Positions 42,820-49,884 of a stretch of 64,000 nt of DNA are shown here, one piece after another. The stretch lies in NCBI GenBank assembly GCA_947458545.1, contig CANGYH010000001.1:248001-312000 (forward strand), given 5' to 3'. This DNA is from Cytophagaceae bacterium. GTDB taxonomy: Bacteria; Bacteroidota; Bacteroidia; Cytophagales; Flexibacteraceae. The position numbers were made by a program, and so were the translations under genes. The notes below the pieces were generated by a model that was given only the letters and a program-made list of their open reading frames with translations, was not told the origin of the DNA and made no database searches. Position 1 is the stretch's first letter; each line of letters starts with the position of its first letter.

Positions 42820-42827
42820 TATATTTG
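42820..42827 (+). promoter_or_regulatory. Promoter -7 element of the cobalamin operon
   Basis: TATATTTG fits the Bacteroidota -7 consensus and sits 10-15 bp upstream of the aptamer. A TTTC about 16 bp upstream could be a weak -33. The mRNA would start directly before the riboswitch. Confidence 0.6.
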
Positions 42828-42837
42828 TGCCCGAAAC

Positions 42838-43045
42838 CGTTTGGTAGCTGAGCCTTTACAGTCTCAGCTTTAAAAGGGAACCCCGTGCAAGACGGGGGCT
42901 GTACCCGCAACTGTGAGCTTCTCAGTGCCTCTATGGCTCTGAAAATAGGCTGCCCAATTAGGCCACTGCCATGTCGGAAAATTCCGACAAAAGGTGGGAA
43001 GGCCGGGCGCCAAGCCTGAAGCAAGCCAGGAGACCTGCCAACGCG
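42838..43045 (+). promoter_or_regulatory. Cobalamin riboswitch
   Basis: The conserved cobalamin aptamer is readable: AAAAGGGAACCCCGTGCAAG with the ACGGGGGCTGTACCCGCAACTGTGA core, GCCACTGCC, GGTGGGAAGGCCGGG, and the B12 box GCCAGGAGACCTGCC near 43026. It lies in the only long non-coding stretch of the window (42788-43206) and heads an operon with a TonB receptor and a BtuG-like protein. On cobalamin binding it should reduce expression. The variable stem between GCCACTG and GGGAAGG is formed by the TGTCGGAA/TTCCGACA palindrome. After the aptamer CCTGGCTT (43057-43064) can pair with AAGCCAGG of the B12 box, a possible expression platform. Confidence 0.93.
42972..42989. repeat. Palindrome copy within the riboswitch variable stem (TGTCGGAA-AA-TTCCGACA)
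   Basis: 8-bp arms around AA. It is the exact reverse complement of the copy in the parB-like gene, and matches the core arms of the parA upstream palindrome. In RNA it forms the peripheral stem between the GCCACTG and GGGAAGG elements of the riboswitch. Confidence 0.75.
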
Positions 43046-43206
43046 TTGTCTTTCCACCTGGCTTCGGGAATAAAGCTAACGGTTGGCCCATACATGCCGG
43101 ACATTCTGCTCCGTTGAGCAAGGATGGTTCATATACTTGCTCGCAGAGCAAACCGGTGTTATTGGCTATCTGTCTTTACCGGGGTCTCATCTAGGCTTTC
43201 TCTAGA

Positions 43207-44505
43207 ATGACTCGACAGATTTTTAAAACACTTGCTTCTTTAGCATTTTGTGCCGCCACTTTTAGCGCGGTGCTTACTCCACGCGTATTTGCCCAAAGCA
43301 GTAGGCTCGTCGTTGTAAACGGCGGTAGATTTGAGTTTGCACCTCCATTTAGGGATTTCGTAAGCGTCGGATACATCGATACGCAAGCCGGTGCATTCGT
43401 TAAGGCTGACTCGATCCTAGGCCAGTCAGTTACAGACGGGATAACCGTAAACGATACCCTGTATTTAGCCACAGACATAGGCGTCCGTGCCTACAGCCTC
43501 CCAACGTTCTCTATTATTGGCACGTCTCCCTTTTTGTCTGGCATCAGAAAGCTGGCCAAAGTAGGCAATAAACTCTGGGCCACCCGCGGATTTGGCACCC
43601 CTGCCGGCGGCTCATATCTGCTTGCCCTGGATCCAAACCGCCTCACCGTGACCGATTCTGTTGGAGGCTTTCCCTCCGACCTCGAGCATTTGGTTTCAGG
43701 CGGCCAGGGCACCCTTTTTGTCGGCAATCCCGGCTCTTTTTTATCCGATACCGGTGCCATCTTTCGCGTAGATACCAGGTCTTTGCGCATCACCGCTGTA
43801 TATAGGCTGGGTACGCTAGGCAAGGGCATAGGCAAGCTAGGCTTTGCCAATGGTCGGCTTACGGCCATTGCCTCGCGCGGATTTGGTGCTCCAAGGGGTG
43901 CCTTTGTAACGATAGCCTCAGCCTTGGGTATGCCGGCGATTCAGCCATTATCATTTGCCGTCGGAGGGGTGGTAAGTTACCGCCAAGGCTTATTCATAGG
44001 CCAGCTAGACAGCCTCGGCCTTGGGGTGGCCAACGGCGATTTTTCGGGCTTGCGTGCCCAGCCTCGCGTGCCCAATGCCTCGGCAGCCGTAGAGGTTGAT
44101 ACTTTAGCTAACCGCGCTTGGATCACCACCGCAGACTTTGCCAGCAACGGCCAGGCACTCGCGTTTAACCTTTTTACCGGCCAGCCAGAAGCAACATACC
44201 GCGTTGGCATATCGCCAGAAGTGATTCTGCACTGGCGTGCAGCCCAGCTGACATCCACTCTCCAGGCTGGCCTCAGCCTGCACCCCACACTGTATCCCAA
44301 TCCTGCGCAAGAGGCAATCTATCTGGCTCAGTTTTTAGCCCAAGGCTACGACAACTTTGCCGTATACGACGCCCAGGGCAGAGAACATCTTGTGCAGCAT
44401 ATTGATAGTCAAAAACTTAACACATCAGATCTGGCACCTGGAGTGTATACGCTGGTCGCCAAAGGGCCTAATGGTATTATAGCCACCAGGTTCATGAAAA
44501 ACTAG
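43207..44505 (+). CDS. Secreted beta-propeller protein with T9SS C-terminal sorting domain
   Basis: A 432-residue exported protein, first gene of the cobalamin riboswitch operon. Signal peptide (about 1-29, RVFAQ), a repetitive beta-rich body with propeller-like blade repeats (SVGYIDTQAGAFVKADSIL, NKLWATRGFGTP, LFVGNPGSFLSDTGAIFRVDT, RAWITTADFASNGQALAFN), and a type A sorting domain at about 352-432 (HPTLYPNPAQEAIYL, FAVYDAQGRE, LNTSDLAPGVYTLVAKGPNG, ATRFMKN). The sorting tail predicts export by the type IX system and attachment to the surface. YncE-like propellers bind cobalamin in BtuG; whether this one does is inferred from location. No lipobox. Confidence 0.78.
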   Translation: MTRQIFKTLASLAFCAATFSAVLTPRVFAQSSRLVVVNGGRFEFAPPFRDFVSVGYIDTQAGAFVKADSILGQSVTDGITVNDTLYLATDIGVRAYSLPTFSIIGTSPFLSGIRKLAKVGNKLWATRGFGTPAGGSYLLALDPNRLTVTDSVGGFPSDLEHLVSGGQGTLFVGNPGSFLSDTGAIFRVDTRSLRITAVYRLGTLGKGIGKLGFANGRLTAIASRGFGAPRGAFVTIASALGMPAIQPLSFAVGGVVSYRQGLFIGQLDSLGLGVANGDFSGLRAQPRVPNASAAVEVDTLANRAWITTADFASNGQALAFNLFTGQPEATYRVGISPEVILHWRAAQLTSTLQAGLSLHPTLYPNPAQEAIYLAQFLAQGYDNFAVYDAQGREHLVQHIDSQKLNTSDLAPGVYTLVAKGPNGIIATRFMKN

Positions 44506-44515
44506 TTTCTTTAGT

Positions 44516-45919
44516 ATGCGCATGAGGCTGATTCTTGTTTGCATCGTTAGCTTAACCGCCCTGCCTATGGTTTGGGCCAATGGCCTTACGTTGCGAATAC
44601 AAGAACCGGCCAGCCCTCGCAAGGCCCGATGCTGGGTCACGTGGGCCAACGGATGGAACGACCTTTCTTCTGGCGGAAACCATGATGCCGTCTGGCTATT
44701 CGGCCGCGAGGCTCAGACCGGCCCCTTACGCGTGCAGAGTGCAGCCATAATTACTGGCGCAGAGCGTTTTCAGCTCAGGATAGCCTCAGACAGGCTGGGC
44801 CTTTGGTTGCTGTCTGCAGCGGGCCGCAGCTTTGAGCGAGACAGCGCGCTTGTAGAGATTGAATGGAGTACAGAGGTCAATCTCTTACGTTTATGTGCCT
44901 TAGAGATGGTTTTAATCCCTCCAGGGCCTTTTTGGGTAGGCGATAGTCTTTCCAACAACACATTGTGCCAATACGGGAGCCGTCGTCCTTTTCAAATACA
45001 TGGAGACACCGGTTTATCTCTTAACCAAGATGGAGAATTAGCCACCGGCGATGAGCCCTCAGGCCCTTTACCAAGTGGTTTTCCTATTGGTACACAAGGT
45101 TTTTTTTGCATGAAATACGAGGTAAGCCAGGCACTCTGGGCAGACTTTGTAAACGATTTGCCGGCAGAGGATAAGGCTTTACTTTATCCTGAGCTGGGCC
45201 AAAACCAGTTGCCGGCAGCGTTTACATACAAGCGGTCTCAATTAAGCGTTTCGACATCTGGCCAGGTATTGGTTCGCTATGGGGGAGCCCGTGCCATGGG
45301 CGGCCTGAGTTGGACAGATCTGCTTGCTTTCCTAGACTGGGCTTGCCTTAGGCCGCTAACAGAGACAGAGTTTGAAAAGGCATGCAGGGGACCTTTGCGT
45401 CCAATACCTAAAGAGTATGCCTGGGGTACGCCGCATGCACAAGCTCCCCTAGATAGCCTGCAATACGACGGTACATTGGCCGAAACAGAAACCGCCCCAA
45501 CCGATGCCGAGACGGGCATGGCCAATTTTGCCCGCTTTGTAGGGTTGCCTTACCTAGACGGCCCTGCACGACAGGGATTTGCCGCTAAACCAGAGCCCAA
45601 TCGCATAAATGCCGGGGCGGGCTACTATGGCTGTTTTGAGCTTAGCGGCAACGTTTGGGAGCAATGCGTACGCCTTATGATGCCCAACAGCACGTTTTCT
45701 TCTGATCCAGGAGATGGCAAACTGGCCAGCGGACGGGCCAACCAACCTGGATGGCAGGGTATCTCACCCATCGTAAGAGGCGGCGGGCATGCAAGTATTT
45801 TGGTGGATGCGCTGTCTTATCCTTACCGAGATCTGGCAGTATCAGACAGGTTTTATATCAATTATACAGGTACGCAACGCCGCAGTACCACAGGCGGACG
45901 AGGCGCAAGAGGATGGTAA
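44516..45919 (+). CDS. Secreted formylglycine-generating-enzyme-like (SUMF1/EgtB fold) protein
   Basis: A 467-residue exported protein with a signal peptide (about 1-22). The N-terminal ~120 residues are a beta-rich domain (LRIQEPASPRKARCWVTWANGWN). The rest resembles the FGE/SUMF1 fold: LIPPGPFWVGD, FFCMKYEVSQALWADFVN, CLRPLTETEFEKACRG, YAWGTPH, YYGCFELSGNVWEQCV and IVRGGGHASILVDALSYPYR. The catalytic cysteines of true FGE are not seen (the RGG motif is followed by GHAS), so it is probably non-enzymatic, as in the T9SS lipoproteins GldJ and GldK. It ends in a GR-rich tail (TGGRGARGW) and its stop overlaps the next gene (ATGGTAA). Role in B12 uptake is unproven. Confidence 0.68.
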   Translation: MRMRLILVCIVSLTALPMVWANGLTLRIQEPASPRKARCWVTWANGWNDLSSGGNHDAVWLFGREAQTGPLRVQSAAIITGAERFQLRIASDRLGLWLLSAAGRSFERDSALVEIEWSTEVNLLRLCALEMVLIPPGPFWVGDSLSNNTLCQYGSRRPFQIHGDTGLSLNQDGELATGDEPSGPLPSGFPIGTQGFFCMKYEVSQALWADFVNDLPAEDKALLYPELGQNQLPAAFTYKRSQLSVSTSGQVLVRYGGARAMGGLSWTDLLAFLDWACLRPLTETEFEKACRGPLRPIPKEYAWGTPHAQAPLDSLQYDGTLAETETAPTDAETGMANFARFVGLPYLDGPARQGFAAKPEPNRINAGAGYYGCFELSGNVWEQCVRLMMPNSTFSSDPGDGKLASGRANQPGWQGISPIVRGGGHASILVDALSYPYRDLAVSDRFYINYTGTQRRSTTGGRGARGW

Positions 45920-46233
45920 AGATTTTCGTAATCCTAATTGGTTGGTTGGTTAGCCCTTCTATTTGCTTCGGGCAAGGCAGATTTTCTGGCGGCCCAGGCA
46001 GAGGCGATGCATCAGTAGTTGTGCAAATGCAAAGCGCAGGCGGAGCACTGGCTTATCCTAACCCGGCCAAATGCGGCCAAGTAGTACAACTCTCGGGCAA
46101 TGCCACGACCTTTGACGTCCTTAGTATTAATGGGTATATACTAATTACCAATACCGCAACTTATTTAGCTAATTCGCCTGGTATTTATATACTAAAAACA
46201 TCAGACAAATGGCTAAAACTGGTTGTATACTAG
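45913..46233 (+). CDS. Very small exported protein resembling a bare T9SS sorting domain
   Basis: A 106-residue protein: signal peptide (about 1-21, LIGWLVSPSICFGQG), a short Gly-rich linker (GRFSGGPGRGDASVVVQMQ), then a segment like a T9SS C-terminal domain (LAYPNPAKCGQVVQLSG, FDVLSINGYI, LANSPGIYILKTSDKWLKLVVY). It carries no other domain. The start ATG 45913 overlaps the upstream stop and the end overlaps the TonB receptor start by 25 bp, so it is embedded in the operon. It could be a small surface protein, an accessory for exporting the adjacent FGE-like protein, or a remnant. I recognise no named family. Confidence 0.65.
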   Translation: MVKIFVILIGWLVSPSICFGQGRFSGGPGRGDASVVVQMQSAGGALAYPNPAKCGQVVQLSGNATTFDVLSINGYILITNTATYLANSPGIYILKTSDKWLKLVVY

Positions 46234-48113
46234 TATTGCTACTAGCAATATACTTGCTAACTAATTTAGTATATGGCCAGCCTGCGCCTAAAGATACTTT
46301 AAGTCTTGATGGGGTGGTTATTTCTGCACCACAGGTTAGGCTCAGACTCAATACGCAGCCTGGGCAGTTGCTCGATTGGGCAGTGCAGCCTTTGTCGGAA
46401 ATTTCTTACAAATCTTATGGCGCCGCTGGGGTTGGCAGTATATCCTTCAGGGGCTTGCCCGCCAACCAGACCGCCCTTTTGTGGAGAGGGCTCTCGCTAG
46501 GTTCTCCACTGCTTGGGCAGGTAGATATGGGCCAGCTAACCATTACCGAAGCATGGGCGCCTCAACTGGCAGACAAACCATCGCTGGTACACGCAGGCAA
46601 TGCTCCAAGCTCGGTTTGGGTAGGGCAACCACTCTACACTCCTGATAGTAGCAGGCAGCCTCGTCTGCGGGCTCAAGCCCATTTTACAGCAGGGCTTTAC
46701 GGTTTACGTGTAATCGAAGGAGCTGTAACTGGCCAGGCCAATCGTTGGCGATTTTCTGTACGCATGCTAACGTCGAGGGCCCAAAACGACTTTCGCATTT
46801 ATCGGCCGGCTGGGGCTGATCCATTGCTTCCGCGTTTTCAGGGGCATGCCATGCAATCAAGTTTACAGGCCGAGGGTGTGGCTGCTTATCAATCTAGGCG
46901 GCAGAATTACCTAGTAGAAATGTCGGCCCTCACCAATGCGGCCCAGCGACAACTGCCTCCTCCTATTACAAGGTACAGCTCTGCTCAGCAACTATTAGGA
47001 CAAACCTTGGCTTTTGTAATCAACCAACGGTTTACGCCTAAAGCATCGCGTTGGGCCTATAAGCTTTCCGCAGGCGGATTGCTGGATCAGGGCAGATACA
47101 TAGACGATGCAGGCGTATCTAATGTCTTTACAGCCAGGCAATTGCAAGCACTCGGCCGGCTAACCAACTCCGCTGCAGCAGGCTTTGGCAACCTAACTTT
47201 TGCGTTAGAGCACACCCATGCTGTAGGCATTGCACCAAGCTATGGGCAGCACCAAGCTTTACAGGTACATGCGTTCCAGGCGGGGTGTGGCATTGCGCGA
47301 GGCCGGCTAAGGCTAGACCCAACGGCCAACTATTTTATAGTGCAAGGGGCCTCCCATGCGGCAATGGGGCTAGATATATCGTTTGGAAATGAAACCACGG
47401 CCGAGCCGGCCGTGCGTTTAACGACCAAGCCAATTTTCAGGGCTCCCACCTTAAACGACTTGTACTACCCCAGCCTAGGCAACCCCAGCTTGCGCTACGA
47501 GCAAGGCCGACTTTACGAGCTGGCATTGTCTTTGGCTACGCGCTCGGCCGCCAAGTCTTTATACAAGGCCGAAATCATACCATTTATATATGATTATCAG
47601 CGGTTTATCTCATGGCAGCCCCAAGGAAACCTTTGGACGCCCTTATCCTTGTCAGATGCACGCGTTTCTGGAATTACCGGAAAAGCCACAATTACCACCA
47701 AGCCAGGCTTATGGCAATTAGACTGGGTAAACCAAGCCACCATAAGCCAGGGTGGGCTAGGAGGGGCTTGGTTCCAGCTATCGGCCCGGCCCGCAGCGTT
47801 TCTATACACGCCTGCGCTCAGGCTTACGTCTACCTTCGTAGCCAAACGGAACAACGATATTATCTCCTTCCAAACAGCATACACAGGCCAACGCCCAATT
47901 GTAACAGATCTAAGCGCACACCCAATGCCGGGATTTCTGATCTACACCTTAGCTTTAGCCCGGTCTGAGATTGCTCTGTGGGCAGGAAAGGCTTCTGTAG
48001 CTGTGCAGGTGCACGTAGCCTCTAGGTCAGATTATGCCTGGGTACCAAATTATGCTGCTCCTCGCTGGTGGGGCCAATTAAGCTTATCTTATGGTCTGGC
48101 AACGCGTTCGTAG
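46209..48113 (+). CDS. TonB-dependent receptor (putative cobalamin/BtuB-like)
   Basis: Outer-membrane receptor of 634 residues under the cobalamin riboswitch, so cobalamin or a corrinoid is the likely substrate. Signal peptide (about 1-24, LVYGQ), a plug domain (about 30-140, DGVVISAPQVRL, LSEISYKSYGAAGVGSISFRGLPANQTALLWRGL) and a large barrel (strand pairs to the C-terminus, WWGQLSLSYGLATRS). No N-terminal CarbopepD_reg domain as in SusC types. A 22-bp stretch (46391-46412) near the plug start resembles the parA palindrome. It overlaps the preceding small gene by 25 bp and the next by 23 bp. Confidence 0.88.
   Translation: MAKTGCILVLLLAIYLLTNLVYGQPAPKDTLSLDGVVISAPQVRLRLNTQPGQLLDWAVQPLSEISYKSYGAAGVGSISFRGLPANQTALLWRGLSLGSPLLGQVDMGQLTITEAWAPQLADKPSLVHAGNAPSSVWVGQPLYTPDSSRQPRLRAQAHFTAGLYGLRVIEGAVTGQANRWRFSVRMLTSRAQNDFRIYRPAGADPLLPRFQGHAMQSSLQAEGVAAYQSRRQNYLVEMSALTNAAQRQLPPPITRYSSAQQLLGQTLAFVINQRFTPKASRWAYKLSAGGLLDQGRYIDDAGVSNVFTARQLQALGRLTNSAAAGFGNLTFALEHTHAVGIAPSYGQHQALQVHAFQAGCGIARGRLRLDPTANYFIVQGASHAAMGLDISFGNETTAEPAVRLTTKPIFRAPTLNDLYYPSLGNPSLRYEQGRLYELALSLATRSAAKSLYKAEIIPFIYDYQRFISWQPQGNLWTPLSLSDARVSGITGKATITTKPGLWQLDWVNQATISQGGLGGAWFQLSARPAAFLYTPALRLTSTFVAKRNNDIISFQTAYTGQRPIVTDLSAHPMPGFLIYTLALARSEIALWAGKASVAVQVHVASRSDYAWVPNYAAPRWWGQLSLSYGLATRS
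46391..46412. repeat. Degenerate copy of the parA palindrome in the TonB receptor gene
   Basis: TTTGTCGGAAATTTC followed by TTACAAA: two bases short of the 22-bp core of the perfect palindrome. It encodes L-S-E-I-S-Y, in the same reading frame as the copy in the parB-like gene, so it could be coincidental coding similarity. Confidence 0.35.
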
Positions 48114-49191
48114 TTTCATAGGCAGCTTTGGCCTATTAGCTGCCTTGTTGTGTGCAGCTCCTGCTTGCAAACGCGAGGCGCCCGTAGGAGAACCTACGCC
48201 TGTGGCCTATACCCAGGGAGCATACGTTCTATGCGAGGGCAATTATGGCTGGGGCCAAGGCACCATAGAGTATTTGGATACCAGCATGCCTGGTGGCCAA
48301 ACGGAAGATGCCTACCTACTGGCCAATGGCTTTGCAGCCGGCAATGTTGTGCAGAGCATGGCAACTTCTGGCGATTCTGCCTATTTAGTCGTCAACAACA
48401 GCAATAAGGTTGAATTGATAGAGAAGCGCACCCTTAAGCGCCTCCGTGCCTACACACAACTTGTATCGCCCAGATTCGCCCTCCCCGTTGGGCCAGACCT
48501 TTGGGTTACCGATCTTTATGCAGGCAGGATTACCGTTTTAGACCGCGCAACGCTGGCGCTTAAGCGTACCATCAAAGCACCGGGGTGGACGGAACAATTG
48601 GTCTATGCCCAAAACAGGGTTTATGTGGCCAACCGCAGACAAACAACCCAAGCCGCTGGCGGAATAAACGAGCAGGTGCTCGTGTGCGATCCTACAACCT
48701 ATTCTATCGTCGATAGCATCAAATTTTCGGGCGGGCGTGGATGCCAAGACTTGGTCTGGATGCCGCAAGACGGTAAACTATACACCCTGTTAGAGCATGA
48801 CAGTGCCCTGCGCGGGCCCGCCCTTGCGTCCATAACACTGGCTGATAAATCACTGCATAAATGGCCAACCGTGGTTCGCAACCGCCAACCCATCAGGTTA
48901 CATGCTGCCGCGGGAGGTTTGTTATGGCTCCAAGGAGACAGGGTATGCTATTGGACGCTGACGGACGGCATTCACTCTGTGCAGCCCTTGGGTGCAGGCG
49001 CTAACCTTACCGCCATCGGCCCCTTGCCATCTCATGGTTCCAAGAGAGGGCGCTTGTGGGTTGCCAATGCGCAAGACTATGTCTCGCGTGCATCTTTGGC
49101 TTTAGTAGAGATTGACTGGGCCACACTATCGATAAATCAGATAAAAAATACCAGAACTGGTATTATTCCTGCTCAGATTGTAATATTTTAA
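48091..49191 (+). CDS. BtuG-like YncE/DUF5074-type beta-propeller lipoprotein
   Basis: A 366-residue protein with a signal sequence ending in a probable lipoprotein cysteine (LLCAAPACKREAPV) and a seven-bladed propeller-like body (NGFAAGNVVQSMATSGDSAYLVVNNSNKVELIEKRT, PVGPDLWVTDLYAGRITVLDRATLALKRTI, YVANRRQ, GGRGCQDLVWMPQDGKLYTLLEHD). In gut Bacteroides, BtuG is a surface-exposed propeller lipoprotein that binds cobalamin with very high affinity and hands it to BtuB. The same arrangement, TonB receptor followed by this lipoprotein under a B12 riboswitch, makes BtuG-like function likely. It overlaps the receptor gene by 23 bp. Confidence 0.75.
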   Translation: MVWQRVRSFIGSFGLLAALLCAAPACKREAPVGEPTPVAYTQGAYVLCEGNYGWGQGTIEYLDTSMPGGQTEDAYLLANGFAAGNVVQSMATSGDSAYLVVNNSNKVELIEKRTLKRLRAYTQLVSPRFALPVGPDLWVTDLYAGRITVLDRATLALKRTIKAPGWTEQLVYAQNRVYVANRRQTTQAAGGINEQVLVCDPTTYSIVDSIKFSGGRGCQDLVWMPQDGKLYTLLEHDSALRGPALASITLADKSLHKWPTVVRNRQPIRLHAAAGGLLWLQGDRVCYWTLTDGIHSVQPLGAGANLTAIGPLPSHGSKRGRLWVANAQDYVSRASLALVEIDWATLSINQIKNTRTGIIPAQIVIF

Positions 49192-49197
49192 TTTTTT

Positions 49198-49884
49198 ATG
49201 CAGCGGATTGTAGTTTTATCAGGTGCAGGCATATCTGCAGAGTCTGGGATTCGCACATTTAGAGACTCCGACGGGCTTTGGGAGAACCACCGAATAGAAG
49301 ACGTTGCCACGCCTGCGGCCTGGGTGCGTAACCCAGCATTAGTACTCACCTTTTACAGACAGCGTTGGGAGCAGTTGGCCCAAGTTGCGCCCAATGCCGC
49401 GCATAAAGCACTGGTTGCCTTAGAAAGCCAATACAAGGTTCACATCGTTACTCAGAACGTTGATGATCTGCACGAGCGCGCTGGCTCAACCCATGTATTG
49501 CACCTACATGGTGAGCTTTGTTTTGCCAGATCTAGCCTCGGGAGAGACAAGCAACTTTATCCAATCCGTAATCGGTACATCGATCTCGGAGACATGGCCG
49601 CAGACGGCAGCCAGCTCCGGCCTCATATCGTTTGGTTTGGCGAGGCTGTACCCAACCTCGAGCCAGCCATTGAGCTGGCCGCCACTGCCGATCATCTGCT
49701 CGTCGTAGGTACCTCGCTGCAAGTGTACCCGGCTGCTTCTTTGGTCAATTATGTATCCTCAGGTTGCGGCATCACCGTAATAGACCCTCATTTGAGCCCA
49801 ACGGTGTTACCCCCCAGCACCCAGTTGATAGCTGCCAGTGCGACAGAAGGCGTGCCGGCCTGGGTTGAGCAGATGCTTGGTTAA
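49198..49884 (+). CDS. cobB: Sirtuin-type NAD-dependent protein deacylase
   Basis: A 228-residue Sir2 enzyme removing acyl groups from lysines with NAD+. Seen: VLSGAGISAESGIRTFRDSDGLWENH, the QNVDDLHERAG motif, catalytic HLHGEL, and HIVWFGEAVP. The four zinc cysteines of classical CobB are missing; the region between HLHGEL and QLRPHIVWFGE contains none. I recall this variant in several Bacteroidota. It follows the BtuG-like gene by 6 bp in the same direction and may be read as the last gene of the B12 operon, although its link to B12 is only positional (the symbol cobB is historical). Its stop overlaps the convergent ABC gene by 4 bp. Confidence 0.9.
   Translation: MQRIVVLSGAGISAESGIRTFRDSDGLWENHRIEDVATPAAWVRNPALVLTFYRQRWEQLAQVAPNAAHKALVALESQYKVHIVTQNVDDLHERAGSTHVLHLHGELCFARSSLGRDKQLYPIRNRYIDLGDMAADGSQLRPHIVWFGEAVPNLEPAIELAATADHLLVVGTSLQVYPAASLVNYVSSGCGITVIDPHLSPTVLPPSTQLIAASATEGVPAWVEQMLG

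Follow-up and report, generated by a model that had tools for sequence, protein, structure and literature searches.

The window analysed here is a stretch of 64,000 nucleotides (bases 248001–312000 of contig 1) from a genome of 3.23 Mb that is 99.7% complete. On its plus strand there is one cobalamin riboswitch aptamer (RF00174; 42825–43057), which matches the full model (1–189) with a score of 90.4 bits and an E-value of 4.5e-21, above the gathering score of 31.5 bits across the whole model. No other RF00174 match was found anywhere in the genome. The aptamer lies upstream of five plus-strand genes (ORF1–ORF5), which are separated by a gap of 10 bp (ORF1/ORF2) and overlaps of 7, 25 and 23 bp (ORF2/ORF3, ORF3/ORF4 and ORF4/ORF5, respectively). 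The original prediction of a cobalamin riboswitch heading five genes with small overlaps or short gaps is thus borne out, with no gap or overlap longer than 25 bp. Immediately before the aptamer, TATATTTG (42820–42827, plus strand) fits TAnnTTTG, the consensus of the Bacteroidota −7 promoter element. Patterns of this type occur 35 times in the window versus 37 expected by chance and are not enriched; the position of TATATTTG alone is suggestive. Scans for intrinsic terminators and sigma-70 promoters gave no signal above shuffled sequences. The predicted gene content of 42820–49884 is correct for the five genes, but a sixth was left out: ORF6 (49198–49884, plus strand; 228 aa) encodes a Sir2/CobB-type sirtuin (PF02146, 140.8 bits) and begins 6 bp past ORF5; it may share a transcript with btuG. 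ORF6 was ruled out as a member of the system, being absent from the side of BtuG in the related loci L034 and L035, and is probably a neighbour outside the B12 system.

The last two of the five genes encode the predicted B12 importer. ORF4 (46209–48113, plus strand; 634 aa) is assigned as the TonB-dependent B12 transporter BtuB by its whole-length likeness to characterised BtuB. Specifically, a family profile of 12 sequences (residues 10–631) matches Bacteroides BtuB2 (8bmx_C) with an E-value of 1.3e-123 and E. coli BtuB with an E-value of 4e-27; the single sequence scores far under the NCBIfam TonB-B12 cut-off. ORF5 (48091–49191, plus strand; 366 aa) is assigned as the propeller lipoprotein BtuG by its DUF5074/BtuG propeller, its lipobox and the adjoining btuB; its family profile matches BtuG2 (8bmx_D) with an E-value of 5.8e-95, and the lipobox cysteine, Cys26, is invariant across the aligned homologues. 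A TonB receptor and a BtuG-like propeller lipoprotein had been expected here, and both are confirmed by the family profiles; the accompanying statement that the fourth gene has no obvious role in B12 uptake is wrong, as this gene is btuB.

ORF1 (43207–44505, plus strand; 432 aa) is composed of a signal peptide, a propeller (residues ~32–340) and a type IX secretion system (T9SS) C-terminal domain (residues 362–432). The tail scores 37.5 bits against TIGR04183 (cut-off 23) and also matches PF18962, and the genome has genes for the T9SS translocon SprA (1949 bits) and for more than 80 T9SS-tailed proteins. With a tail over the cut-off and SprA in the genome, ORF1 is classed from its sequence as T9SS type A cargo, and it is very probably exported by this route. 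The propeller has no Pfam match. Nevertheless, it is related to BtuG: hhalign aligns ORF1 with the BtuG family profile at 98.5% probability (E-value 2.1e-15, ~16% identity), and a profile search of PDB sequences retrieves BtuG entries with an E-value of 1.5e-7 alongside T9SS tail structures. Consistent with these matches, the best two Foldseek hits of the ORF1 AlphaFold model (pLDDT 79) among 350,542 chains are 8ptd and 8ptf, which are BtuG1/BtuG2 complexes with cyanocobalamin, and the B12-binding protein BtuK1 is found at rank 12. We did not file ORF1 as BtuG proper, because its sequence contains no lipobox and has a T9SS tail in place of the lipoprotein anchor. By profile and model, ORF1 is a divergent BtuG/BtuK-like propeller, in agreement with the T9SS-sorted beta-propeller predicted as the first gene, and it is likely to bind cobamides (B12). 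The genome also codes for proteins with strong B12-binding domains.

ORF2 (44516–45919, plus strand; 467 aa) contains a signal peptide, an N-terminal beta-sandwich-like domain and a domain with the fold of the formylglycine-generating enzyme (FGE). It scores 48.7 bits against FGE-sulfatase (PF03781), and the top Foldseek match of its model (pLDDT 84) is the FGE structure 6xtq (E-value 1.2e-7). Although ORF2 shares the fold and the Pfam family with the formylglycine-generating enzyme, the active-site cysteine pair (C-x4-C) is present in 0/118 ORF2 relatives, ruling out ORF2 as a canonical enzyme of this type. The prediction of an FGE-like secreted protein therefore stands for the fold, but not for the FGE cysteine pair, and is extended by a specific pairing with ORF3 (see below). 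A C-terminus of the form SDR...GGRG is conserved in 94/118 relatives. A secreted FGE fold without catalytic cysteines is known from PorK, GldK and GldJ of T9SS-bearing Bacteroidota, in which the fold serves as a docking hub (PMC12421860). In particular, the FGE substrate groove of PorK, devoid of catalytic cysteines, is the docking surface for PorN (PMC12421860). Unlike these proteins, ORF2 carries an N-terminal beta-sandwich-like domain, has no lipobox, is partnered by a motif peptide and is not part of the T9SS core.

ORF3 (45913–46233, plus strand; 106 aa) comprises a signal peptide, a mature start QGRFSGGPGRGD and a T9SS-type tail; its longest reading frame begins upstream at 45751, and 45913 is the likely start. 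The tail of the window copy scores 20.1 bits against TIGR04183, under the cut-off of 23, while the homologue in L069 scores 40.5 bits and also matches PF18962 over the Pfam cut-off. The tail type predicted for this tiny protein is thus seen above threshold in the L069 homologue and below it in the window copy. The mature start is of the type Q..[YF]xGGx[GN]xG, a motif found in 15 homologues from B12 loci, and ~27–40 residues precede the tail in homologues where the tail start is clear.

Outside B12 loci, an ORF2 relative is usually followed directly by the gene for a secreted protein bearing [YF]xGG motifs, in many cases as repeats of ~30 residues. A motif-bearing partner adjoins ORF2 in 44/55 non-B12 loci, versus 13/760 other ORFs of the same loci, and several of the 13 background matches are ORF3-type partners too, encoded at another place in the locus. 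The corresponding Fisher p of ~1e-50 is overstated, as the pairing rule, though fixed, was drawn up once the sequences had been inspected, and the loci share ancestry and hence are not independent. Even so, the pairing is seen in several Bacteroidota families as well as in records labelled Omnitrophota. ORF2-type genes, two or three in tandem in some genomes, stand before genes for secreted proteins that begin with [YF]xGG repeats; these repeats are ~30 residues apart, and many of the proteins have a conserved cysteine per repeat (L076, L084, L089, L096, L097, L102, L108, L116, L117, L119, L129 and others). In the Omnitrophota-labelled loci (L092, L103, L120, L125, L134, L139 and L145), tandem ORF2-like pairs are followed by secreted proteins with xGG motifs, an arrangement that suggests a module not tied to the T9SS. 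To judge from sequence, ORF2 and ORF3 have the appearance of a single module that was recruited. There is close to an even chance that they represent a general and apparently undescribed system of two genes, present in Bacteroidota and perhaps also in Omnitrophota, in which the FGE-fold protein recognises or modifies [YF]xGG-type motifs, either single or tandemly repeated, on its secreted partners, and of which the distinct B12-recruited branch organises a T9SS-secreted capture layer.

The five-gene order was looked for in other Bacteroidota, with riboswitches called by Rfam scans, since a simple regular expression missed most aptamers. Two genomes of the same family (L034 and L035) retain this order behind an RF00174 riboswitch, and it is also complete in more distant Bacteroidota (L068, L069, L082 and L085); at further distant loci, the operon is truncated by contig ends or partly rearranged. 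Because the same order recurs in distant relatives, the five-gene arrangement is not due to chance. The genes lie under riboswitches in relatives, where their absence from B12-regulated loci would have counted against the original prediction; together with the BtuG-related propeller of ORF1, this upholds its suggestion of B12 capture partly routed through the T9SS. Variants of the locus are found as well. Two further members of this family (L032 and L033) have the riboswitch before the T9SS propeller alone. At other loci, a DUF4465 protein occupies the first slot, T9SS-tailed in L070, L075 and L083 and without this tail in L066 and L087. The riboswitch of L072 and L075 is followed by the first gene and ORF2, with ORF3-ORF4-ORF5 on the opposite strand, and in L078 and L079, ORF1 and ORF2 lie under the riboswitch with no adjoining ORF3. 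The ORF1-type proteins at L078:5131-7998 and L082:6198-7922 contain extra Big_9/cadherin-like domains between the propeller and the T9SS tail. Control loci with other ORF2 relatives, including L076, L089 and L104, have no cobalamin riboswitch. A branch with 99% support in the tree of 118 ORF2s parts 96 non-B12 members from 22 others, and this group of 22 includes all 18 ORF2s from B12 operons. In the genome studied here, ORF2 is present as a single copy, at the B12 locus only.

To gauge the frequency of T9SS routing, we surveyed 80 riboswitch sites in genomes from across the class, mostly the top-scoring site of each genome, and assigned the genes of the operons behind them with home-made profiles. 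As these profiles are rough, the sample is biased to strong riboswitches and some regions end at contig ends, the counts are approximate. An ORF4-like TonB receptor is encoded in 66/80 operons, BtuG in 45/80, and at least one T9SS-tailed protein in 33/80, with a T9SS propeller in 13/80 and a T9SS-tailed DUF4465 protein in 13/80. That T9SS-tailed proteins are frequent in B12-riboswitch operons holds irrespective of fine thresholds. Because 33/80 operons encode a T9SS tail, T9SS-routed B12 binders look common in the class, and the same count rules out that T9SS routing is unique to the window. ORF2 was found in 0/80 sampled operons; therefore, the ORF2-ORF3 module is a lineage-specific addition and is not required for B12 uptake as such. 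At three sites (L160, L191 and L199), a T9SS-tailed propeller is the only gene called past the riboswitch. The third gene of the operon at L168 (G237) encodes a BtuG-like protein matching the T9SS tail profile, in which lipid anchoring has possibly been swapped for the T9SS.

Taken together, the locus is best read as a BtuB-BtuG importer with a T9SS-delivered capture propeller and a docking ORF2-ORF3 module, a reading that we hold with moderate confidence as a whole. The riboswitch would be expected to shut down this cobamide-scavenging operon under ample B12 supply. BtuB (ORF4), with BtuG (ORF5) as its lipoprotein lid, would import B12 over the outer membrane, while ORF1, exported through the T9SS onto the cell surface or into the medium, would bind cobamides and hand them to BtuG/BtuB, the job ascribed in Bacteroides to lipoproteins such as BtuK1, BtuH and BtuJ. 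ORF2 and ORF3 would form a single accessory module, with ORF3 as a ~27–40-residue peptide displayed by the T9SS. The most likely role of ORF2 would be to dock the [YF]xGGx[GN]xG motif of ORF3, thereby keeping or organising the secreted layer near the transporter.

The capture role of ORF1 has to be weighed against its being a T9SS-secreted propeller that binds no B12, such as a scaffold or adhesin. Propellers are a generic fold, the sequence of ORF1 is diverged from that of BtuG, and B. theta BtuK2 showed no B12 binding, though its paralogue BtuK1 binds (PMC12751083). However, the top structural matches among the 350,542 chains are BtuG–cyanocobalamin complexes, two related genomes have an ORF1 homologue as the sole gene under the riboswitch, and the first slot is interchangeable with DUF4465, a B12-binding family, so a non-binding ORF1 appears rather improbable. 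The part played by ORF2 is less firmly placed. Docking is proposed because PorK docks PorN with the same fold, and we advance it on this analogy as a tentative assignment, somewhat short of an even chance. The main rival is modification of the motif, with ORF2 as an enzyme acting on the GG motif in ORF3, or in repeat proteins encoded elsewhere, in the manner of a maturase and its substrate. The strict pairing of an FGE-fold protein with a short mature N-terminal motif fits such an enzyme, as do the C-terminus conserved in 94/118 relatives and the Omnitrophota-labelled partners, which run on into long sequences, so that ORF2 may be associated with the motif and not with the T9SS. We nevertheless consider it unlikely: the cysteine pair of the FGE copper site is missing in 118/118 relatives, no alternative catalytic set was recognised, and Bacteroidota have well-established docking proteins with a catalytically inactive FGE fold (PMC12421860).

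A different objection is that ORF2 and ORF3 are unrelated to B12, being a surface module that was inserted into the operon and travels with it, as might be expected from the 96/118 sampled ORF2 members outside B12 loci and from the lack of ORF2 in the sampled B12 operons. Against this, the ORF2s of B12 operons all fall on one side of the 99% branch, they are kept in diverged genomes despite rearrangement (L072 and L075), and the single ORF2 of the genome is at the B12 locus; we regard a mere passenger as doubtful.

The B. theta B12 operons (btuB/btuG, btuH, btuJ, btuK and btuL; PMC6143338, PMC10404256, PMC12751083) have the riboswitch, BtuB and BtuG, and extra binders in common with the operon described here. 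They join BtuG with the B12 binders BtuH, BtuJ and BtuK1, all of which are lipoproteins, some vesicle-enriched (PMC12751083). In contrast to these lipoprotein accessories, the extra propeller in the window is T9SS-tailed without a lipobox, and an FGE-fold protein and a mini T9SS protein are inserted in the operon. B12 binding has been demonstrated for distantly related DUF4465 proteins of the BtuJ family, which are described as lipoproteins or as having periplasmic signals, with the T9SS unmentioned (PMC13398666). This family takes the ORF1 slot in L066, L070, L075, L083 and L087, whereas the window has a propeller there. We found no description of the T9SS combined with B12 in the open-licence papers searched, which is weak evidence of absence, and only PorK/GldK/GldJ-type work on FGE with the T9SS in the same set of papers. 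The combination of BtuG with further B12 binders is already known; the novelty here lies in the T9SS route and in the FGE/GG module. The arrangement widens the lipoprotein-only view of Bacteroidota B12 capture known from gut Bacteroides and, if the reading is true, many other Bacteroidota would export B12 binders via the T9SS, which would give this major secretion system a part in the competition for a vitamin in short supply. Furthermore, the ORF2-ORF3 pairing offers a testable partner relation, with a short motif as a handle, for a widespread family of unknown function.

The survey also brought up a secreted family of ~290–340 aa, mostly T9SS-tailed, which is encoded in 21/80 B12-riboswitch operons. 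It has no Pfam domain except the tail, and one member tested has no PDB relative. The typical sequence is of the form ...SLGDGGSA...DFAVFENSF...ELAFVEVSSDG..., and the gene (L153, L156, L158, L163, L164, L166, L170, L175, L176, L182, L183, L193–L195, L197, L198, L201, L203, L210, L216 and L222) usually adjoins that of a T9SS propeller or a DUF4465 protein.
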